This document shows, piece by piece, positions 20,205 to 31,601 of a stretch of 49,120 nt of DNA (positions are counted from its first letter, which is position 1; every line of letters begins with the position of its first letter). The stretch is from Chloroflexota bacterium (GTDB taxonomy: Bacteria > Chloroflexota > Dehalococcoidia > GIF9 > UBA5629): positions 1 through 49,120 of the forward strand of contig VGNY01000003.1 in assembly GCA_016865895.1 (NCBI GenBank). Direction: 5' to 3'. A program made the position numbers and the translations under genes. The notes beneath the pieces were generated by a model. It was not told where the DNA came from. It ran no database searches and was given only the letters and a program-made list of their open reading frames with translations.

Positions 20205-21776
20205 CTAAACTTTCCGCCCAGATTCTAACTGAAATCCGCAGTTGTTTATTATCAGCCTGCCGTCCATAAAAAGGGCAGCTACCCGGCTTCCTAAAACGTG
20301 CAAATCCTCAAGTGGGTCACCGTCAACTATCGCCAGGTCAGCCGTTTTGCCAGTTTCAATAGAGCCAAATTCCTTTTCCAACCCCATTGCGTAGGCACTA
20401 TTGATTGTGGCAATCCGCACCGCATCAGCACCACTAAACCGTATATCATCAGGCTCTTTATTCATAATAAGGTCGAACATGTTTATTTCATGTCCTATCA
20501 TCGCCGGCGTACACATAGGAATACCCCCGTCATTTCCGCATGCTATAAGAGCGCCTTGCTCAAAAAGCATCCTGAAATTTTCCACACCATCAGAAATCAT
20601 ACTCGAATAGTATTTATACATTACAGATGTATCAATAATACCCATAGCTTTCAATTTGCCAGTGCTGATTTGGCGAAACGCTTTCATCACACTATCTCTT
20701 AATTCAGGTATCCAGTATTCATTCGCAAGAGCCGCCCAAGTCTTGTCCCTGAACTCCGTTACCCTATCCATATCCGGATGGTCATTGTAGGGATTTCCTC
20801 TGACCTTCCAGCAAAGGTCGTAAGCCACCGAGAGCGTAGGTTCAACAATGCAACCCGCTGACTTGAAAGCCTCTACATCCGCCTGAGTAAGGCGGGCATT
20901 GGCGGGGATATGTGCGAGTGATGAAACACCGCTTTTCACTCCACGTCGAAAGGACTCTACAGAAGTATGATGCATGGTAGCCTTAACATTCCTACGCCAT
21001 GCTTGGTCTGTCAGGGCTTCCATCTGTTCCAGTGTCATTATTGTCGCATCAGGCTTGAAATTACTCAAATTCTCACGCTGTTCCCCAATTTTAATAAGGT
21101 CAGCACCTCGTTCGTCAATGGCTCTATCCACCGCGTCTCTGACCTGCCTTTCATTCGCATCCATCGGAAAAACCACAACACCAGAATAATCTTTTTCATG
21201 GTCAACAATCGGCATACCCAAGGCATAATATAGCAAACGCACCATCGGAGTAACCTTCGGTGACATATAGCCACCTGGCTGGGTCACCACTACCGCTTGT
21301 AAAATGCGTGGGCCCCATATTTCTTTTCTAAAAATTCTATCCCTCAGCGCCCTGCTAGGACGCAAATCATCTCCCCATGCGTCCCTAATGTTTGTGATGC
21401 CGTGGGCAAGGCATTCAGCCATGCTTTTTGCCATTTGCTTCTCGCGATATTTTCTACTGAGCTTCGAAGCATGCATGTCAAACAACAACGAAGGCGTTGT
21501 TAGAATTGCATGACAGTGAGTATTGAAGAGTCCCGGAAGCACGGTTTTGCCCTTCAGGTCTACTATGAAGTCGGGGGTTATATTTCGGGGCTCACCCGGC
21601 AGGCCGGGCATAGCTTTAATCTTTTTCCCCTGGACGATGACTCCTACCTGAGGAAGAAAATAGCAACCATTTACAACGTCGAGGAATCGGCAGTTTTTTA
21701 GCTCTACACAGGCATCATCCCCAGGCTCATATTCTTCGACAAAATGAACCTCAGGATAATCTCTCTTATCAGCCAT
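20205..21776 (-). CDS. Metal-dependent amidohydrolase
   Basis: A 523-residue amidohydrolase-superfamily protein. The beta-sandwich start ends in GKTVLPGLFNTHCHA (H-x-H metal ligands). A likely carboxylated Lys lies in RGADLIKIGEQ, the later His residues in VKATMHHTSVESF and SSLAHIP, and the catalytic Asp in ALIACGNDGGIPM. The C-terminal sandwich reads GKTADLAIVDGDPLEDL, typical of imidazolonepropionase/prolidase-like members. The gene is the last of the ABC/CoA-ligase cluster, so it may hydrolyse an amide or cyclic form of the imported compound; this is inferred. Confidence 0.88.
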   Translation of the reverse strand: MADKRDYPEVHFVEEYEPGDDACVELKNCRFLDVVNGCYFLPQVGVIVQGKKIKAMPGLPGEPRNITPDFIVDLKGKTVLPGLFNTHCHAILTTPSLLFDMHASKLSRKYREKQMAKSMAECLAHGITNIRDAWGDDLRPSRALRDRIFRKEIWGPRILQAVVVTQPGGYMSPKVTPMVRLLYYALGMPIVDHEKDYSGVVVFPMDANERQVRDAVDRAIDERGADLIKIGEQRENLSNFKPDATIMTLEQMEALTDQAWRRNVKATMHHTSVESFRRGVKSGVSSLAHIPANARLTQADVEAFKSAGCIVEPTLSVAYDLCWKVRGNPYNDHPDMDRVTEFRDKTWAALANEYWIPELRDSVMKAFRQISTGKLKAMGIIDTSVMYKYYSSMISDGVENFRMLFEQGALIACGNDGGIPMCTPAMIGHEINMFDLIMNKEPDDIRFSGADAVRIATINSAYAMGLEKEFGSIETGKTADLAIVDGDPLEDLHVLGSRVAALFMDGRLIINNCGFQLESGRKV

Positions 21777-21871: not shown

Positions 21872-23155
21872 TCAATAAACCCGCTCATCAACTATCAGTT
21901 TATGAAGTTCAGGTATTACCCCTTTGGCTACAAATTCAACCCGGTCAACCTTGATTCGCACCGCGTCACTCACAACCTTATTTAACTCCTGAGCCAGTTT
22001 CTCCTTATCAACCCCCTCCTCACCCTTGAGTTCCACTTTAAGCGTTAACTCGTCTCGATGACCAGGCCTGGTCACTACCGCCTGATACTGGGCAACCTGT
22101 GGAAATTTAACCATCGCTGGCTCAAGCTGCCGAGGATGGATAAACATGCCTCTGGTTCTAACAGCATCACCTACTCTACCCAAAAGGCGTGTAATCCGTA
22201 GAGCACTCCTGCCACAAGGACAAGGTTCTTCAATCCAGCCAGCAAGGTCTCCAGTGGCGAATCGTATTAATGGATAAATCTCATCAATCGGAGTCACTAC
22301 CACTTCGCCAACTTCGCCAGGGCCTACCGGCTTTCCAGTTTCATAACTAATTATCTCTACTATAACTTCCTCGGCTATATGCATACCATTTCTCTCACTG
22401 CACTCATAAGCCATAAAGCCAACATCAGCCGTCCCGTAGGCATCTCTGGTAGCAATGCCATACTTCTCCTCAACCAATTTCCTGATTTGACCACCACCCA
22501 TCTCACCGCCAATGCAGGCTAACTTGAGGTTGAAATCTTTGCGAACATCAAAGCCCATCTCCTCGGCTTTATTGATGATATTCATGAAAAAGCCCGTAGT
22601 TCCGAAAAATCCGGTAACTTTAAGCTGGTGCATAACTTGAACCTGAAGTTCAGTGTTGCCCACCCCCATAGGTATAACCGTAATTCCGGCTCGTCTCATT
22701 GCTTCATCAACCATGTGCCCCGCAGGCACCAGATGATAAGACCAGGTATTGATAACAACGTCACCCTTGCCAAAACCAAGAGACTTTACTAGGGAGACAA
22801 GCCGCTGCCAGAAACCTTCACTTTGATGATGTGGGTCATAGATGGGACCAGGAGAAACGTATACCCTCTCCAAATCTCCTATAGGGACAGTCACTAATCC
22901 GCCAAGAGGCGGATTATTTTTGTACAAATCCACCAGTTCGTCCTTCCTCAGGAGAGGCAAATTCTCCAAATCCTTGATGCCCGACACTGCAGATGGTTTA
23001 ATGCCTGCTTTATCAAATCTCGCCCTGGTTGCCGGAGCCTTTTCATAAGCATAAGCAACTAACCACTTCAGACGTTCATCCAGATACTTCCGCCTCTCTT
23101 CCCGAGACATCTTCTCCAATACTTCAAATGAAGATGCAGCTTTTTTGGTTCTCAT
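21872..23155 (-). CDS. Phenylacetate-CoA-ligase-like protein, paralogue A
   Basis: A 427-residue adenylate-forming protein of the PaaK family. It shows the PaaK lead APATRARFDKAGIKPS, ENLPLLRKDELVDLY, GITVIPMGVGNTELQVQVMH, the YGTADVGFMAYEC acceptor region, RFATGDLAGWIEEPCPCGR and a C-terminal GMFIHPRQLEPAMVKFP domain. The usual SSGTTGKPT phosphate loop is replaced by SPGPIYDP (residues 101-108). It is closely related to the next gene (same layout, about 40 bases apart). The substrate, perhaps an aryl or short acyl acid, is unknown. Confidence 0.88.
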   Translation of the reverse strand: MRTKKAASSFEVLEKMSREERRKYLDERLKWLVAYAYEKAPATRARFDKAGIKPSAVSGIKDLENLPLLRKDELVDLYKNNPPLGGLVTVPIGDLERVYVSPGPIYDPHHQSEGFWQRLVSLVKSLGFGKGDVVINTWSYHLVPAGHMVDEAMRRAGITVIPMGVGNTELQVQVMHQLKVTGFFGTTGFFMNIINKAEEMGFDVRKDFNLKLACIGGEMGGGQIRKLVEEKYGIATRDAYGTADVGFMAYECSERNGMHIAEEVIVEIISYETGKPVGPGEVGEVVVTPIDEIYPLIRFATGDLAGWIEEPCPCGRSALRITRLLGRVGDAVRTRGMFIHPRQLEPAMVKFPQVAQYQAVVTRPGHRDELTLKVELKGEEGVDKEKLAQELNKVVSDAVRIKVDRVEFVAKGVIPELHKLIVDERVY

Positions 23156-23201
23156 TACTTCCCCCTTCGTTTATTCTTAGTTCAAGTAACTTGTAATGTA
23201 G

Positions 23202-24476
23202 CTAATACTTTCGCTCATCAACAATGCGTTTGGCGCCTTCAGCAATAATGCCTTTGGCAACAAACTCCACGCGATCGAATCTTACTTTGCACACATCTCT
23301 GAAATCCTTATCTAGTGCAGTCTTCAGTTTCTCCTTATCAACAGTCTCGTCGACAAGCTCAACTTTGAGAACCATCTCATCTCTGTGTTGAGGGCGCACC
23401 ACCACCAGCTGATACCGCGAAATCTCAGGAAATCTAGAAATGACTTCGTCTGATTGCTTAGGGTGGACAAACATCCCCCTCACCCTGACAGCCTCCCCAC
23501 TCCTTCCCATAATCTTCGGTACCCTCGGTGTTGTCCTTCCGCAACCGCATGGCTCTTCAACAAAGCAGGCCAGGTCACCAGTACCAAAGCGAATCAGCGG
23601 ATAAACTTCATCAAACGGGGTCACTACCACCTCGCCAACCTCACCAGGGGTGAGTTGCTTCCCTGTTGCTGGGTCCACTATCTCAACTATGGCATCACAA
23701 CTAACATGCATACCTGCCTGTTTCTCGCACCCTGTAGCTATTGTCCCTATGTCAGCCGTGGCATAATTATCTCCACCCATACAGAAAATTCCATACTTCT
23801 CCTGGAACAGTTTCCTCAGCGGTTCTCCCCCCATTTCTCCACCAACCATAGCCCATTTCAGATTGAAATCTTTTTTAAAATCATACCCCATCTCCTCAGC
23901 TTTATCTATGATAATTTTAAGAAAGCTGGGAGTGCCGACAAAACCATGCACCTTGAGGTCGTGCATAATCTGTACCTGTAGCTCGGTATTTCCGGTGCCT
24001 GTGGGGACAACGGTAAACCCTAAATTCCTGAGTGTTTGGTCAACTCCCAAGCCCGCAGGTGTTATGTGATATGACCATGTATTCATTACAATCTGCCCTT
24101 TGCCAAAGTCGGATGACATGCCAGCTCCCATACCGAAACCTCTCTTGCGTTGCGGGTCGTAAATAGGGCCTGGCGACTGATATATCCGCTCCAGACTATC
24201 CATAGGCACAGCTAGATACCCACCAAATGGAGGATTCGCCTTTTGGAGAGCAATCAAATCATCCTTCCTCAACAGCGGAATTTTTTCCAAATCCTTCACA
24301 GTACGAATATCGCTAGGCTTTACCCCAGCCTTGTCGAACCGCTCCTTTACCGCAGGTGCCCTCTCATAAGCATAAGTGATTATCTCACTCATTCTCCCCT
24401 CTAGGTATTTCTGCCTCTTCTCGGGAGCCATCCTCTCCAACTCCTGGGGTGACGGCCCAGATGCTTTCTTTTCCAT
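23202..24476 (-). CDS. Phenylacetate-CoA-ligase-like protein, paralogue B
   Basis: A 424-residue paralogue of the previous gene with the same order of motifs: PAVKERFDKAGVKPSDIRTV, PLLRKDDLIALQ, SPGPIYDP again at 101-108 in place of SSGTTGKPT, GFTVVPTGTGNTELQVQIMH, DNYATADIGTIATGCEKQ, RFGTGDLACFVEEPCGCGR and GMFVHPKQSDEVISRFP. Both enzymes would activate carboxylic acids as acyl-adenylates and CoA thioesters if the altered loop still binds ATP. Side-by-side paralogues suggest either a heterodimer or two substrates. Confidence 0.88.
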   Translation of the reverse strand: MEKKASGPSPQELERMAPEKRQKYLEGRMSEIITYAYERAPAVKERFDKAGVKPSDIRTVKDLEKIPLLRKDDLIALQKANPPFGGYLAVPMDSLERIYQSPGPIYDPQRKRGFGMGAGMSSDFGKGQIVMNTWSYHITPAGLGVDQTLRNLGFTVVPTGTGNTELQVQIMHDLKVHGFVGTPSFLKIIIDKAEEMGYDFKKDFNLKWAMVGGEMGGEPLRKLFQEKYGIFCMGGDNYATADIGTIATGCEKQAGMHVSCDAIVEIVDPATGKQLTPGEVGEVVVTPFDEVYPLIRFGTGDLACFVEEPCGCGRTTPRVPKIMGRSGEAVRVRGMFVHPKQSDEVISRFPEISRYQLVVVRPQHRDEMVLKVELVDETVDKEKLKTALDKDFRDVCKVRFDRVEFVAKGIIAEGAKRIVDERKY

Positions 24477-24580: not shown

Positions 24581-24600
24581 TGCGACCCCACAGGGTCGCA
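24581..24600. repeat. Palindrome TGCGACCC-CACA-GGGTCGCA
   Basis: A perfect 8-base inverted repeat around CACA in the 180-base gap between livF and paralogue B. Same GACCC/GGGTC family as those at 9542 and 49079. It could act as an intra-operon hairpin; there is no T-run to make it a clear terminator. Confidence 0.6.
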
Positions 24601-24656: not shown

Positions 24657-25451
24657 CTATGCCAGCCATCTCTTCCGCCTCCGATAGTGTTTCACCTCTC
24701 GATAACTCTTCCTCTCACCAACCTGGCTAAGCCCAAGATAAAACTCTTTTATGTCTTCATTATCCCGCAACTTTTCTGCCGGTCCATCCAGAACTACCCT
24801 ACCATTCTCCATAACATAACCATACACAGCAATCGATAACGCAGCTTTTACATTCTGCTCCACTAACAACATCGCCGTCTTCTCTTCAGTATTTATCCTT
24901 TGGACAATCTCAAAAATCTCGTGGACTAATTTAGGACTAAGACCTAATGATGGCTCGTCAAGGAGCACAACCTTAGGATGTATCATCAACGAACTGCCGA
25001 TAACCAGCATCTGCTGCTCACCGCCGGAAAGATAGCCGGCTACATTATGGCGAAGGTCTTTCAGCCTCGGAAAATACTCGTAAACCAAGTCCAGGTCTTT
25101 ACCCAGCCTGGCACCATCACCAGTCACATAAGCACTCGCTTTTAAATTCTCCTCCACCGTCAAATGGTCAAATAGACGCCTCCCTTCCATAACCTGCACA
25201 ATCCCCAACTTCACAATCTCCTCAGGATTCTTTCTATCTATTCTCTCTCCCTCAAATTCAATGCTGCCATCAGTTACCTCACCAACCTCGGTCCTGAGTA
25301 AACCAGATATTGCCTTAAGAGTCGTAGTCTTGCCAGCACCATTACCGCCAAGCAATGACACAATCTTCCCCGGTGCTACCTCCAAAGATACACCCTTCAA
25401 CACCAGTATGACATTATGGTAAATGACCTCAATATTATTGAGCCGTAACAT
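24657..25451 (-). CDS. livF: Branched-chain-type ABC transporter ATPase LivF, operon 1
   Basis: A 264-residue ABC ATPase. Walker A GGNGAGKTTTLKAISGL, signature YLSGGEQQMLVIGSSL, Walker B VVLLDEPSLGLSP and switch His region LLVEQNVKAAL are all present. LivF pairs with LivG to energise uptake through LivHM. A basic tail (EVKHYRRRKRW) extends beyond the usual end. It lies downstream of the binding-protein gene, separated by a stem-loop. Confidence 0.93.
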   Translation of the reverse strand: MLRLNNIEVIYHNVILVLKGVSLEVAPGKIVSLLGGNGAGKTTTLKAISGLLRTEVGEVTDGSIEFEGERIDRKNPEEIVKLGIVQVMEGRRLFDHLTVEENLKASAYVTGDGARLGKDLDLVYEYFPRLKDLRHNVAGYLSGGEQQMLVIGSSLMIHPKVVLLDEPSLGLSPKLVHEIFEIVQRINTEEKTAMLLVEQNVKAALSIAVYGYVMENGRVVLDGPAEKLRDNEDIKEFYLGLSQVGERKSYREVKHYRRRKRWLA

Positions 25452-25509: not shown

Positions 25510-26784
25510 TTACTTCTTGTATTCGGCTGGCCTCAAATCGGGACAGGTGACCCAATCGGTAACCGGCAGCAGCTTGCCTTCCTGAACATTGAAGATACGA
25601 GTTTCCCTCGGCTCTGGCTTATCCGCAGCATATGTGTATTTGGTCAAGCCCAGAGGGCTATACTCCTTCAGTTTGATGAACTGATTCTTCAGCGCCGCAC
25701 CATCAAGCTTATCCCAGCCAACTTCCCTAGCCGCTTTTTCCACACAATAACAAACAGTATAGATCTGACCCCACACGGCAAGGTAACCCATCACCCTCTC
25801 TTTCGGCGCTCTATTATTTTTATCGGCAGTAGCAATGGCTAAGGCAACACCCTCAACATCAGGCATTGACCAGGATGCATAGCTGCGTGGGCCAACCACC
25901 CCATCAGCAAGCGCACCTGCCAACATGACAGCAGACTCATCCATACCCCACGGACCACTAGCACGATGAACCTTGCCCGGGGTAGTATCATAAAGGTCTT
26001 GATTCAACATACCTAAAGCCGCAGCGCTCTTATGAATTACTCCCGGGCCATGAGCTAGCGTATTGTCATACACCCAGTTAGCCCCTGCGGCCTTTATCGC
26101 CGTCATCTGGGTAGACACATCCAGGTCCCTTAAACCAAAAACACCTTCATATACAATCTCGACACCTTTGTTTTGCGCATAGTTCCGTGTTTCTTCAACC
26201 ATTATCGCCTTGCCATAAGGATTGTCCCAGGTGAGTATAGCCAATTTTACCTTCTGCCCTGTCTTCTTAGCCCAGACATCAGCCAACCAATCAATAGTAG
26301 CGCCCATGGAATCTGAATATCCCGGGATGGTAGAAAATTCATTCCCTACAGGATAAAGGGACTTAACTCCTGGGCTGTTACTGAAGCAAAATATATTATC
26401 TTCTACAAAGCGCTCCTTCAGCGCTTCAGCCTCGGCTGAGCCATAAATGAGCGTTACGACAGGATAGGGCTTCGATTCCTTGAATGCAGCATAAGCCGCC
26501 AATGCGGCATCTAGCTTGCCCCCAGTGTCTCGAAACATGTGGTCCACGGGGACTCCGTCAATTCCACCCCGTTCTGCGTTGAACCAAGCTACGAAATCAG
26601 TAAAGCCGGTCACCAGAGGTGCCGTAATCCCTGCATAAGGCCCACTCAAGTCACCAAAATGATGAATAATGAACTTGTCCGGCTTAGCTACCGGTGGCGG
26701 TGCCGGCTTAGCACAGCCAAGAACCGGCGTCAACATCAACGCCACTATTACCAGCGCTATTGTACTAATGTTTCTCTTGGTCAA
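25510..26784 (-). CDS. Lipoprotein substrate-binding protein, operon 1
   Basis: Periplasmic-type (family 1) binding protein of the branched-chain amino acid transporter class, about 424 residues. I chose the TTG at 26784, which lies 6 bases after AGGAGG; the TTG at 26805 would read through that ribosome site. The lead peptide ends in a lipobox (LTPVLGC) and a proline-rich tether KPAPPPVAKPD. The mature part shows FGDLSGPYAGITAPLV and WLADVWAKKTGQKVKLAILT. The neighbours are CoA ligases, so the ligand may be an organic acid rather than an amino acid. Confidence 0.88.
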   Translation of the reverse strand: MTKRNISTIALVIVALMLTPVLGCAKPAPPPVAKPDKFIIHHFGDLSGPYAGITAPLVTGFTDFVAWFNAERGGIDGVPVDHMFRDTGGKLDAALAAYAAFKESKPYPVVTLIYGSAEAEALKERFVEDNIFCFSNSPGVKSLYPVGNEFSTIPGYSDSMGATIDWLADVWAKKTGQKVKLAILTWDNPYGKAIMVEETRNYAQNKGVEIVYEGVFGLRDLDVSTQMTAIKAAGANWVYDNTLAHGPGVIHKSAAALGMLNQDLYDTTPGKVHRASGPWGMDESAVMLAGALADGVVGPRSYASWSMPDVEGVALAIATADKNNRAPKERVMGYLAVWGQIYTVCYCVEKAAREVGWDKLDGAALKNQFIKLKEYSPLGLTKYTYAADKPEPRETRIFNVQEGKLLPVTDWVTCPDLRPAEYKK

Positions 26785-26855
26785 ATCACACCTCCTTTTC
26801 GCCAAGACTAAAAACTCCTCGCTACTGTTTTTAATTACCTGCTATTCTCACCCCC

Positions 26856-27917
26856 TCAATAAGCAAAGGGACGCAGCCGATAGGATGTCTTGAATATCTC
26901 CCATCTGTGGGCTAACCCTCTTGGCTCAAAGATTATAAACAGCATGATGACTAAACCGTAAACTATCGGGCCAAGAGCTGCCTGAAGAAAGGCTCCCCAA
27001 GCCACAAAAATCCCCGATAGCCACATCCCTAATACCTTGGTCAATTCGTCAAGAATGCGTAAGAACGCAACACCAAAAACAGCCCCAGCCGTGCTACCCA
27101 TGCCTCCCACAATCATCATCCCCACATACCATATTGAATCCATCAAGGTGAAGTGGTCAGGATTTATGGCCCGCATCCAGTGCGCCCAGAGACAACCAGC
27201 AACACCAGCATACACCGAGCAAATGAAAAAGGCAAGCAGCTTATACCGAAAAACATTAACCCCCTGTACCTCAGCCGCTAGGTCATTATCCCTGATGGCG
27301 ATGAAGGCCCTGCCCACTCCCGTTCTAACCAGGTTTTTGGCAAAGAAAGTCATCAACACTGCTATGGGGATGATTATGTAAAACATACTTTGAGCCGATG
27401 TGCAAGCAAAATCACCTATTCTTGGTGCTGACACTCTCATGCTATGTACTCCGCCAGTAATACCCTCCAGAGGATTGCTTATTAGAGCCGGAATTATGAA
27501 CTGAGCTGCTAATGTCGCCATAGCCAGGTAGAAGCCTTTAACCCTCAACGAGGGCAGACCGAAAATCAATCCGATTATACCGGCACTAAGGGCTGCGCAA
27601 GGCAAAGCTGCCCAAAATGACCAACCCAGCTTCGCAGTTAGTATGCCCGAGGTGTAAGCTCCCACTGCCATGAACGCTGCCTGTCCCAGCGAAATCTGGC
27701 CACAATACCCGGTAAGTATGTTAAGTCCATGGACCGCAATCAAGCTAATGCCAATAAAATTGAGTAAGTTCAGCCAGCGGCCGCTGAGGAATAGCGGTAG
27801 ACTAAACAGGAAAACAAGTCCAATTACCAGTATTATCCACTGCAGACGGGTACGGACAATCGCCATATCTTTGGCGTAACTTTCATCATAAGTACCACAG
27901 GGACGAGCTACCGCCAT
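26856..27917 (-). CDS. livM: ABC transporter permease LivM, operon 1
   Basis: A 353-residue integral membrane protein with about nine hydrophobic helices (for example WIILVIGLVFLFSLPLFLSG). Family marks are LTGYCGQISLGQAAFMAVGA and RAFIAIRDNDLAAEVQGVNV followed by FKLLAFF-like YKLLAFFICSVYAG and IVGGMGSTAGAVFGVAF. It starts 2 bases after livH with AAGGA upstream of the ATG. It forms the channel with LivH. Confidence 0.92.
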   Translation of the reverse strand: MAVARPCGTYDESYAKDMAIVRTRLQWIILVIGLVFLFSLPLFLSGRWLNLLNFIGISLIAVHGLNILTGYCGQISLGQAAFMAVGAYTSGILTAKLGWSFWAALPCAALSAGIIGLIFGLPSLRVKGFYLAMATLAAQFIIPALISNPLEGITGGVHSMRVSAPRIGDFACTSAQSMFYIIIPIAVLMTFFAKNLVRTGVGRAFIAIRDNDLAAEVQGVNVFRYKLLAFFICSVYAGVAGCLWAHWMRAINPDHFTLMDSIWYVGMMIVGGMGSTAGAVFGVAFLRILDELTKVLGMWLSGIFVAWGAFLQAALGPIVYGLVIMLFIIFEPRGLAHRWEIFKTSYRLRPFAY

Positions 27918-27919
27918 TA

Positions 27920-28792
27920 CTATATCCTTTCTATCCTCTTAAGCCCAAAAAGCCCCTCAGGGCGGATAATCAACACCACAAGCAGGATAATATAAGGTGT
28001 TATCTCCATCATCCACGTTGCAACTAAACCCCCAGCCAGGTTCTCCAGCACCCCCACCGTCAGCCCACCAATCAAGGCACCACCAATAGAATCCAGCCCA
28101 CCGAACAATACCGCTGGAAAAGCCTTGAGACCAATTAGAGCCAAAAATTGACTTACGCCGAGTCGATACCCAAGAAGCATGCCGCCCACGGCAGCTACCA
28201 CCCCACACAACGCCCAGCTCATGCTGAAAATGGTCCTGACATTTATCCCCCGTGCCTGAGCCACTTGATGGCTTTCAGCAGTGGCCCGCATAGCCAATCC
28301 CATCCGCGTCCGCTGATAGAACAAAAACAACAGAACAAAAAGAGCCATAGCCAAAAAGAATGACCACAACAGGTCATGAGAAAATACTATACCGCCAATA
28401 GATACTGGAGCTCCAGGTAAGAACTCGGGCAGCCTATGCTGATAAGCGCCCCAGATGCCCATTGCTACCCCATTTAAGAAATAAACTAAAGCCAGGGTTA
28501 CCAACACCGCGCTCAACAGTGGCTGACCGATGAGTGGCCGCAGTGTAAATCTCTCTATCAGCAGCCCCAAAGCAATACTGCCTACCAAACTGACCACTAG
28601 GCTAATCCATACAGGCAAGCCAAATTGCTCCATAGACATCCAGAAGAAAAAGGCGCCAAACATCATCATCTGCCCTATGGCGAAGTTGAAAACGCTGGTG
28701 GACTTGTAAACCAACACTATCCCAAGTGCAATAAGTGCGTATACACCGCCCACCATCAATCCGTTAGCTGTATACTGAAGTACTGCTTCCAT
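27920..28792 (-). CDS. livH: ABC transporter permease LivH, operon 1
   Basis: A 290-residue permease with eight or so membrane helices. The family block VYALIALGIVLVYKSTSVFN then FAIGQMMMFGAFFFW opens the protein; MRATAESHQVAQARGINVRT and FGGLDSIGGALIGGLTVGVL are conserved. It lies 5 bases after the acyl-CoA ligase stop and is intact, unlike the livH of the second operon. Confidence 0.92.
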   Translation of the reverse strand: MEAVLQYTANGLMVGGVYALIALGIVLVYKSTSVFNFAIGQMMMFGAFFFWMSMEQFGLPVWISLVVSLVGSIALGLLIERFTLRPLIGQPLLSAVLVTLALVYFLNGVAMGIWGAYQHRLPEFLPGAPVSIGGIVFSHDLLWSFFLAMALFVLLFLFYQRTRMGLAMRATAESHQVAQARGINVRTIFSMSWALCGVVAAVGGMLLGYRLGVSQFLALIGLKAFPAVLFGGLDSIGGALIGGLTVGVLENLAGGLVATWMMEITPYIILLVVLIIRPEGLFGLKRIERI

Positions 28793-28797
28793 CGTCT

Positions 28798-30693
28798 TTA
28801 ATCCACCGAGTTAATTTTGATAGCCGTCGTTATAGTACCCTTCCTGCCATCACGATAGGTAATCGGTGCCTCCACAGCCATCTCGCTGGCTCCGCTGTAC
28901 AACGCGTCTATAAGTTCCTTGTAACGCTCCTCAACAAAAGTTCGCTTTATCTTCCGTGTCCTGGTCAGTTCCGCTTCATCAGCATCAAACTCACGATGCA
29001 AGTTAGCAAATTTCTTTATCCTCGCCCACTCTGGCAGGTTCTTATTTATCCTTTCAATGTCCTTACGAATAAGCTCAATTACTTCCGGCTTCTGAGATAA
29101 ATCAGTAAATGTAGTGTACGGTATACGCCTGGCTTCAGCCCAACGACCAACATTATCTAATTCTATGTTTATTATGCAGACAACATAATCCTTGTCCCCA
29201 CCGCCAATAGTCAATACATCCTTTATATACGGACTGAACCTCAACCTGATTTCAGCATACTGCGGTGAGAACTTACGCCCACCACTCAACTCCCGCAAGT
29301 CATTCATCCTGTCCATGACGATAAGATGTCCATCATCGGTGATATGACCAAAGTCACCGGTATAATACCAGCCATTCTTGAGTTTCTCCGCAGTAGCCTC
29401 AGGGCTCTTATAATAGCCGGAGAATAAGTTTTCGCCTTTGACTATTATCTCCCCATCATCAGATAGCCTGATTTCAACCCCTGGCATTACAGGGCCCGAT
29501 GTTTCTGGTCTCACATCATCGTCTCTGTGAAGGGTGGCAAGACCGCCCTCAGAACTGCCATAAAGCTGCTTGATGTTGACGCCAATGGCCCGAAAGAAAC
29601 GGATGACATCAGGGCTGATGGGCGCTGCTGCCGTATAAGCCATCCTAATTTTGGATAATCCCACTTTGTCTTTAAGGTCCCTAAATACCATCCAATGAGC
29701 CAGAAAATGCAGAAGGCGCCAAAATAAACCCGGCTTCTTCCTAGCCACCTGAATATCGGTGTACTTGTAGCCCACGGGCAAAAACAGATGATATAAGAAC
29801 CTGTTAAAAGGCGTGGTATCAATTATCTTAGCCTGTATTAGACGATTTACGCTCTCCCAATTACGCGGTCCCCAAAAAAGGACCTGAGCACCAATTTCCC
29901 TGATGTTCTCCTGTACGGTTTCAGGCTCCTCAGGAAAACTGACTTCCATACCAGAAACCAGCGACCCAGCAATACCCAAACCCTGCTCTGTAATCCAGGC
30001 TGGCGGCAAGAACGAAACATACTGCTCATCCTCACGCCATCTGTCCACATTCCACCAAGCTTCACCTGCCTGAATTGCGGCACTATGTCTCAACATCGCA
30101 CCCTTAGGCAAGCCAGTCGTGCCTGAGGTATAGCAAAAAACAGCTACATCTTCCCCACTGCCCCGCTCTAAGTTCGCCTCGAACAAACCTGGGTGAAGTT
30201 TCTCGTATTCTTTACCCAGATGGATAACTTCATCAAAACTCATTAAAATAGGGTCATCGTAGTTCCATACCCCTTTAGGGTCCCAGTAGATGACCTTCTT
30301 AAGCAATGGAAGTTCATCCTTGATCTGAAGTAGCTTGTCCACCTGCTCCTGGTCATGGGCTATCACAATCTTAGAATCAGAATGTTCAACAAAATACTTG
30401 ACCTCAACAGGCATACAATCGGTAAATACGCCAACCACAACTCCACCAGCTGCTTGAGTCGCCAGCTCTGCCCAATACCACTCTGGCTTATTCTCACCCA
30501 AAATCGATACCTTGTCTCCTCGCTCCAATCCCAGGCTTATCAAGCCCAGAGAGAAGTACTTAACCTTCTCGTAATAGTCTTTCCAAGTATAAATCTGCCA
30601 AATGCCGAACTCCTTGACCCTCATGGCAACCTTCTTGTCGCCATACTTGTCATAGTTTTGCTTCAACAGTTTGGGTAAAGTAGGCGCTACCAC
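28798..30693 (-). CDS. AMP-forming long-chain-type acyl-CoA synthetase
   Basis: A 631-residue ANL-family ligase. ATP/AMP motif CYTSGTTGLPKGAML, motif LYGSSEGG, GWYYTGDFGHITDDGHLIVM and the C-terminal hinge DRMNDLRELSGGRKFSPQYAE are present. It starts at GTG 30693 with GGAGG upstream. It lies within the ABC operon, between livG and livH, so it probably activates the imported acid to its CoA ester as it enters (vectorial activation). Chain-length preference cannot be read from sequence. Confidence 0.92.
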   Translation of the reverse strand: MVAPTLPKLLKQNYDKYGDKKVAMRVKEFGIWQIYTWKDYYEKVKYFSLGLISLGLERGDKVSILGENKPEWYWAELATQAAGGVVVGVFTDCMPVEVKYFVEHSDSKIVIAHDQEQVDKLLQIKDELPLLKKVIYWDPKGVWNYDDPILMSFDEVIHLGKEYEKLHPGLFEANLERGSGEDVAVFCYTSGTTGLPKGAMLRHSAAIQAGEAWWNVDRWREDEQYVSFLPPAWITEQGLGIAGSLVSGMEVSFPEEPETVQENIREIGAQVLFWGPRNWESVNRLIQAKIIDTTPFNRFLYHLFLPVGYKYTDIQVARKKPGLFWRLLHFLAHWMVFRDLKDKVGLSKIRMAYTAAAPISPDVIRFFRAIGVNIKQLYGSSEGGLATLHRDDDVRPETSGPVMPGVEIRLSDDGEIIVKGENLFSGYYKSPEATAEKLKNGWYYTGDFGHITDDGHLIVMDRMNDLRELSGGRKFSPQYAEIRLRFSPYIKDVLTIGGGDKDYVVCIINIELDNVGRWAEARRIPYTTFTDLSQKPEVIELIRKDIERINKNLPEWARIKKFANLHREFDADEAELTRTRKIKRTFVEERYKELIDALYSGASEMAVEAPITYRDGRKGTITTAIKINSVD

Positions 30694-30706: not shown

Positions 30707-31567
30707 TTACTCTTCTTCTCCCAAATATGCCTTAATTACTGCAGCATCAGCCTTGATTTTATCAGGCGTGCCCTCAGCAATCTTCTTGCCAAAATCTAGA
30801 ACCACAATTCTGTCAGCAATATCCATAACCACGCCCATATCATGCTCCACCAAAATTATGGATTTGACGCCATCCCTCAACACCGGTGTATCTGGATATG
30901 TTTCACCCTGCCCTTCAAAAATATCAATAATGAATCGAGCCATATCTTCTTTCTCCTCAACATTCATTCCCGCCATTGGCTCATCTAAAAGCAAAAGCTT
31001 TGGCTCCAACGCCAAAGCTCTACCTAAGTCAACACGCTTCCTCTGCCCATAAGGAAGAGACCCTACTACCTTCTTCCTTATCGGCTCCATCTCTAGAAAA
31101 TCAATAATATCCTCCACTACACGCCGATGCTTAATCTCTTTGTTGTGTTCCCAACCAAAGTAGATAGCTCCAGTTACGAAATTCGGTTTCAAATGAACAT
31201 GCCTTGCTGCCATTAGGTTGTCCAACGTGGTCAGCCCGGTATAAAGCTGTATGTTCTGAAAAGTCCGCGAAATGCCTAGCTTGGCAATCTTGTAAGATGG
31301 GAGTCGCGTGATTGTCTGGCCATCGAAATTAATAACGCCCCTGTCTGCACGATAGAAACCATTTATACAATTGAGCAGGCACGTCTTTCCAGCCCCGTTA
31401 GGTCCGATGATAGCGAGTATCTCCCCCTCTCTTACCTCAACATTAACCTCTGAAAGCGCTTCCAAACCGCCAAAGCTGAGAAATAGGTCCCGAACCTGTA
31501 ATTTTACCCCTGCTTTCCCCGTGATAGCCAATGCCGACCCCTCGCTTCCAAAACCATCAATAACCAT
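30707..31567 (-). CDS. livG: Branched-chain-type ABC transporter ATPase LivG, operon 1
   Basis: A 286-residue ABC ATPase. Walker A IIGPNGAGKTCLLNCINGFY, LivG-specific GISRTFQNIQLYTGLTTLDN, a signature changed to LPYGQRKRVDLGRAL, Walker B LLLLDEPMAGMN and IILVEHDMGVVMDIADR. It is the first gene of operon 1. Its start ATG lies only 6 bases after a strong -10 element, so the mRNA is probably leaderless. Confidence 0.93.
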   Translation of the reverse strand: MVIDGFGSEGSALAITGKAGVKLQVRDLFLSFGGLEALSEVNVEVREGEILAIIGPNGAGKTCLLNCINGFYRADRGVINFDGQTITRLPSYKIAKLGISRTFQNIQLYTGLTTLDNLMAARHVHLKPNFVTGAIYFGWEHNKEIKHRRVVEDIIDFLEMEPIRKKVVGSLPYGQRKRVDLGRALALEPKLLLLDEPMAGMNVEEKEDMARFIIDIFEGQGETYPDTPVLRDGVKSIILVEHDMGVVMDIADRIVVLDFGKKIAEGTPDKIKADAAVIKAYLGEEE

Positions 31568-31573
31568 CTACAG

Positions 31574-31601
31574 ATTATAACACCAACATGAACTTTGTCA
31601 A
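31574..31601 (-). promoter_or_regulatory. Strong predicted promoter of the ABC/CoA-ligase operon
   Basis: On the minus strand a consensus TTGACA (31601-31596), a 16-base spacer and a consensus TATAAT (31579-31574) with extended TG. Transcription would begin at or next to the livG ATG at 31567, leaving no ribosome-binding site. Confidence 0.75.

Follow-up and report, generated by a model that had tools for sequence, protein, structure and literature searches.

Two adjacent genes on the minus strand of the window (the whole stretch of DNA analysed, 49,120 nucleotides from a Chloroflexota bacterium) encode proteins that resemble PaaK (the acid-activating enzyme phenylacetate-CoA ligase) and have the sequence SPGPIYDP where the P-loop is expected. 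The question raised by this locus is what a protein of the PaaK fold could still do with such a loop. Protein A (P0001, 427 aa; 21872..23155) and protein B (P0002, 424 aa; 23202..24476), both defined by open reading frame and translation and assigned through Pfam, TIGR02155 and AF2 models, share 57% identity. The source genome has no further full-length relative by TIGR02155, its two remaining matches being partial.

The SPGP loop and the family that carries it

An earlier note had placed SPGPIYDP at residues 101-108 of both paralogues, on the SSGTTGKPT of PaaK, and alignments bear this out. The loop lies at 22832..22855 in protein A and at 24153..24176 in protein B (both minus strand), in the position of the P-loop or A3 motif, and phmmer aligned it to SSGTTG(K/N)P of the solved PaaKs 2Y27, 2Y4O and 4R1L; E. 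coli PaaK gave the same correspondence. All 114 aligned members read (S/T)PG(P/A) in the loop. Because the second position (94 in E. coli numbering) is proline in 114/114 members and the fourth (96) in 112/114, the SPGP loop is not a matter of chance. In the same numbering, position 97 is I, L, T or V, position 98 is mostly aromatic and position 99 is Asp or Glu in 112/114 members. In the AF2 model of protein A the loop is followed by a helix (residues 113-126) that B-type proteins lack, their corresponding segment measuring 20-23 residues versus 27 in A-type proteins.

No SSGTTG loop was found elsewhere in proteins A and B. A displaced P-loop was considered at GTTG, residues 185-188 of protein A, and rejected since this motif is not conserved and reads GTPSF in protein B and the rest of the family. 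Search bias was likewise rejected as the source of the loop: of the 79 genome-scan members examined, 44 mismatch the SPGP search peptide and came to light through a second one, and all 44 carry the loop. As a separate observation, one further B-type gene (L007, 888-2159, plus strand) reads SLGPIYDP, the sole non-proline at that position among the aligned SPGP-type proteins.

Proteins A and B exceed the Pfam cut-offs for AMP-binding_C_2 and AMP-binding (30.8 and 31.6 bits against a cut-off of 29.9; 39.7 and 39.8 bits against a cut-off of 25), and both miss the TIGR02155 equivalog cut-off of 646.3 bits, with 200.9 bits for protein A and 189.5 for protein B. A genome scan found at least 594 encoded relatives, of which 80 were kept for analysis. 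By database labels, many of them belonging to metagenome bins, these come from Chloroflexota, Thermodesulfobacteriota, Pseudomonadota, Bacillota, Myxococcota, Aquificota, Armatimonadota, Gemmatimonadota, a WOR-3 bacterium and one Jordarchaeum. SPGP-type proteins are present in at least nine phyla. In a tree of 49 SPGP rows versus 30 others, built after removal of the A3 and A10 columns, the SPGP proteins form one clade (SH-aLRT 100), indicating one change. The dN/dS values of 0.03-0.08 within the family denote strong purifying selection.

These data bear on the idea that the proteins are decaying leftovers of PaaK. Catalytic motifs have indeed been lost, and B-type proteins additionally lack the post-loop helix; against this stand the low dN/dS, the single clade that spans phyla and the fixation of specific new residues, and we give decay next to no credence. 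The argument that the change is shared and conserved, and so is not decay, was already made in the earlier note, and the single clade, the dN/dS and the many phyla now uphold it. For the family, pseudogene decay is refuted by dN/dS, although this leaves room for inactivity of an individual copy.

The composition of the pair varies among relatives. One locus (L008) has two B-type copies, of which the second runs off its contig, and another (L180) has a truncated B copy adjoining an intact A copy; the pair has therefore been remodelled within the family. An Aquificota-labelled SPGP gene (L069, 9992-11188, plus strand) is interrupted by an in-frame stop within the stretch analysed.

Adenylation motifs and the predicted fold

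Motifs were counted in an alignment of 147 proteins, 114 of them of the SPGP type. A three-residue gap covers the A10 catalytic lysine (K424 in E. coli) in 114/114 SPGP members. In the window, the A10-equivalent C-terminus is IPELHKLIVDERVY in protein A (21875..21916) and IAEGAKRIVDERKY in protein B (23205..23246), both on the minus strand and both aligned with the catalytic lysine of GKxxR deleted. The GKxxR signature occurred in 0/80 and 0/32 SPGP tails versus 3/3 canonical controls. The A5 glutamate is replaced by aspartate in 93 of the 114 members, and the A8 motif GRxDD often reads GRxG[D/E]. Retained are the A7 aspartate (114/114), the A8 arginine (112/114) and the A5 tyrosine (109/114). 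The motifs outside the loop had previously been taken as intact, which does not hold for the deleted A10 lysine, the mostly substituted A5 glutamate and the often altered A8. Nor is GMFxHP a canonical motif; it is the SPGP-family variant of PaaK GVNVFP, with Phe in place of Asn338 of the E. coli protein. Several family-specific residues (His137, Pro140, Phe336 and Asp/Glu107 in protein B numbering) align with the active-site region of PaaK.

The P-loop binds the phosphates of ATP, the A10 lysine contacts the alpha-phosphate in adenylation and is highly conserved throughout, A7 and A8 contact the ribose, and mutation of the P-loop in related ligases causes large losses of activity (PMC8388817). 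Considering these roles together with the conservation pattern, the parts required for adenylation are lost and the adenosine site is retained. The earlier note had also raised a different use of ATP. If the proteins were ordinary ATP-dependent ligases that hold ATP in another way, the retention of the fold, the core and the A7 and A8 residues would be accounted for, and SPGP is conserved as strictly as a working catalytic loop. However, two separate adenylation elements, the A10 lysine included, are missing together in every member, and we consider an ordinary ligase improbable.

Both AF2 models (mean pLDDT 91.9 for protein A and 91.3 for protein B) have an ANL/PaaK-like fold over their full length. 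Their best structural matches are 2-hydroxyisobutyryl-CoA ligase (6HE0, in the thioester-forming state) and BT_0428 (4R1L). Against 4r1l_C, the model of protein A gave a Z of 42.0 over 410 aa at an rmsd of 2.1, and that of protein B a Z of 38.2 over 403 aa. BT_0428 has a Cys/His/CxC pattern in common with SPGP proteins; unlike them, both it and 6HE0 show the canonical SSGTTG/TSGTTG loop when aligned. Chains in the thioester-forming or CoA-bound state (6he0, 2y4o, 4r1l_C) can be superposed on the two models over 400-423 residues, whereas for chains with ATP or in the post-adenylation state (such as 2y27 and 6hdx) the aligned length is only about 314-331 residues; the comparison covers these two SPGP models, and a default preference of AF2 could play a part in it. 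The match to the thioester-forming state fits a protein that would have no need of the adenylation state.

Characterized PaaKs (TIGR02155; 2Y27, 2Y4N, 2Y4O) resemble the SPGP proteins in the full-length fold (2y4o, rmsd 2.4-3.0 over 400-407 aa, about 30% identity) and have in common with them the AMP-binding and AMP-binding_C_2 domains, the A7 aspartate, the A8 arginine and the adenine-contacting tyrosine. The SPGP proteins differ from them in the missing P-loop and A10 lysine, an A5 position that is mostly aspartate, scores of about 200 bits against the 646-bit cut-off, a separate clade and other gene neighbours. The EhpF-type phenazine biosynthesis protein (3HGU) is another atypical ANL fold (fold search Z of 21-22) with 14-15% identity; 3HGU is not known to have the C-terminal domain that is retained in SPGP proteins. 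AjiA1 and NatL2 (6WUQ, 6SIW, 6TM4) are also atypical members of the PaaK family, described as held in one conformation (PMC8388817), but they are benzoxazole biosynthetic enzymes that align over only 303-326 aa at 23-25% identity.

Liv and FadD genes beside the SPGP pair

In the window the minus-strand order is LivG, FadD, LivH, LivM, substrate-binding protein (SBP), LivF, protein B and protein A. The first gene of the module encodes a LivG-type ABC ATPase (30707..31567, profile match) and is followed by a FadD-like acyl-CoA synthetase (28798..30693, profile matches and motifs) with an intact YTSGTTGLPKG, A5 Glu, A7 Asp, A8 Arg and A10 Lys. Next come LivH-type (27920..28792) and LivM-type (26856..27917) permeases identified by profile matches, a Liv-type SBP (25510..26805, Pfam Peripla_BP_6) and a LivF-type ABC ATPase (24657..25451, profile matches). 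A putative sigma-70-like promoter at 31574..31601 (minus strand), a consensus match of 12/12 with the TG of an extended -10, ends 7 bases ahead of the listed LivG start; the LivG transcript may therefore have almost no leader, or LivG may in truth start further in. The gap between LivF and protein B contains a terminator-like hairpin by pattern match (24581..24600, minus strand), and the SPGP pair may form a transcription unit of its own. An Rfam search returned no RNA element. An amidohydrolase gene (20205-21776, minus strand) lies between CorA and protein A, without a counterpart at that site in the relatives compared.

Across genomes the typical cluster is LivG-FadD-LivH-LivM-SBP-LivF-PaaK, with the SPGP gene just downstream of LivF. 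In 50/80 SPGP loci the gene immediately upstream is a LivF homologue of the same orientation, with a median gap of about 75 bp as measured from BLAST match ends, and FadD is found in the flank of 36 of the 47 loci that have at least 8 kb upstream. The FadDs of these clusters carry every adenylation motif (40/40). Co-occurrence was scored with cut-offs of 380 bits or more for SPGP and 600 bits or more for the FadD type, chosen by eye at the gap in the distributions. Among 301 Chloroflexota genomes, SPGP occurs in 39, the FadD type in 37 and both in 37 (Fisher p 2e-45), and in a Desulfobacterota sample (198 genomes; the phylum of Dethiosulfatarculus) there were 63 with SPGP, 86 with FadD and 54 with both (p 9e-17); these p-values ignore shared ancestry, the Chloroflexota genomes falling into 15 families that are not phylogenetically independent. 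The two Chloroflexota genomes with SPGP and no FadD type are incomplete. SPGP and FadD lie within 10 kb of each other in 33/39 Chloroflexota genomes, and 4-8 kb apart on one contig in at least 33 Desulfobacterota genomes. The earlier note had suggested looking for a distinct clade with shared neighbours, and the SPGP clade with its Liv/FadD surroundings is what was found. Two small, closed, single-contig genomes of about 1.5 Mb in the same class (L194 and L195, from G117 and G076) have the complete Liv-FadD-SPGP cluster, worth recording for reduced genomes.

The linkage has limits. The rule that FadD is always paired with SPGP holds in the Chloroflexota sample and fails in the Desulfobacterota sample, where SPGP has no close FadD in nine genomes and a further 32 carry FadD but no SPGP. 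In at least six genomes of the same family with both flanks covered, the SPGP gene or pair lies between CorA or its neighbour and an aldolase gene, without Liv or FadD, and three further genomes of that family show the same stand-alone arrangement on one side. Most of these genomes carry Liv/FadD modules at other sites. The window genome has nine FadD copies of this type, each sharing a contig with a LivM, and one SPGP locus. At more distant loci (L047, L068, L051, L052) SPGP genes lie amid housekeeping genes (FtsH/GlmM or nicotinate phosphoribosyltransferase) and not beside Liv. One strict operon everywhere is ruled out by these distant loci and the lone copies at the shared site. Since lone SPGP genes occur with FadD and Liv encoded elsewhere, a physical complex is not implied, and the lone copies, the single SPGP locus against nine FadD copies and the hairpin therefore speak for functional co-occurrence and not for one fixed operon.

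Nor is linkage to Liv unique to SPGP genes. Canonical PaaKs in other genomes (L168, L170) also adjoin Liv genes; therefore, Liv linkage alone does not separate the groups. A second Chloroflexota PaaK group, which keeps SSGTTGKP and GKAKR, adjoins Liv together with two pyruvate/indolepyruvate-oxidoreductase-type subunits and an ACT protein. Such clusters (L204, L206) resemble those of SPGP in that PaaK adjoins a Liv-type ABC transporter, and differ in their canonical motifs, their POR/TPP and ACT genes and the lack of FadD. The ligases described in PMC13186573 have an SSGT-type P-loop motif, and that paper mentions neither "transporter" nor "FadD".

Some stand-alone SPGP copies adjoin a CoA-transferase, a thiolase and a mutase (L072) or a thioesterase (L100). 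Such neighbours, and the conserved His137, Pro140, Phe336 and Asp/Glu107 in what aligns as the active-site region, could point to a different acyl-CoA reaction, such as CoA transfer or hydrolysis, through the family-specific histidine and the loop Asp/Glu. However, among the matches listed the proteins resemble neither a CoA-transferase nor a thioesterase fold, and we regard a different reaction as distinctly improbable. CoA transfer had been among the functions suggested in the earlier note and finds no support, the fold being plainly ANL/PaaK: no CoA-transferase family or fold was matched, only ANL families and, among the structures listed, only ANL folds.

A proposed role alongside FadD

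That the altered protein has been kept across many phyla, usually with an intact FadD (a fatty-acid-activating enzyme) and an importer encoded next to it, suggests that it became a dedicated partner and not an enzyme acting on its own. With slightly more confidence than doubt, we favour the view that the pair belongs to an ancient adenylation-deficient subfamily of the PaaK fold (ANL) that acts as partner of a Liv/FadD module for uptake and activation and that probably binds acyl-AMP or CoA esters. Sequence comparison shows that both adenylation elements are gone and the adenosine contacts kept, and it also shows the single clade, the purifying selection, the gene linkage and the co-occurrence; we infer the inability to adenylate, a ligand among AMP, acyl-AMP and CoA esters, the action together with FadD and any remaining catalysis. 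Having a tight SPGP turn in place of the P-loop and no A10 lysine, the protein would make no acyl-adenylate from ATP. It would retain the acyl pocket and the contacts to AMP or adenosine, rest in the thioester-forming conformation and work with the FadD and the Liv-type ABC importer that are usually encoded alongside. FadD would spend the ATP, and its activated product (acyl-AMP or acyl-CoA) would be bound by the SPGP protein, which, as the module's dedicated partner, would either complete the transfer to CoA or hold and sense the ester. Among the functions raised in the earlier note, recognition of a pre-activated substrate or a binding protein fits best, because the acyl/adenosine pocket is kept and the triphosphate loop and catalytic lysine are gone.

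A more specific form that overlaps with this partner role is a half-enzyme, which would not adenylate and would thioesterify FadD-made acyl-AMP to CoA or another acceptor. In acyl-CoA synthetases, A10-lysine mutants lose adenylation and the second half-reaction can persist, which would agree with the retained adenosine and acyl-pocket residues and with the thioester-forming conformation of both models. However, FadD should finish the reaction itself, acyl-AMP is rarely released, and the candidates for a transfer group are limited to the conserved His137 and Asp/Glu107 of protein B; we think such a half-enzyme unlikely. Equally tentative is the stronger proposal that the SPGP protein is an obligate second component of the Liv/FadD system, receiving acyl-AMP or acyl-CoA from FadD, with the two half-reactions split over two proteins.

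The fold and the superfamily are known; no earlier description of the SPGP subfamily or its gene cluster was found in the open-access literature. As the proteins score far below the PaaK cut-off and nevertheless match the family models, SPGP genes are easily mislabelled as phenylacetate-CoA ligases, an annotation that would, in many genomes, wrongly imply the activation of aromatic acids. If the partner role is true, these proteins would make up a conserved, pseudo-adenylating subfamily of ANL proteins whose genetic partner is defined, and the splitting of half-reactions, or a coupling of import to CoA activation, would be directly testable in culturable Thalassospira, Roseibium and Cytobacillus.
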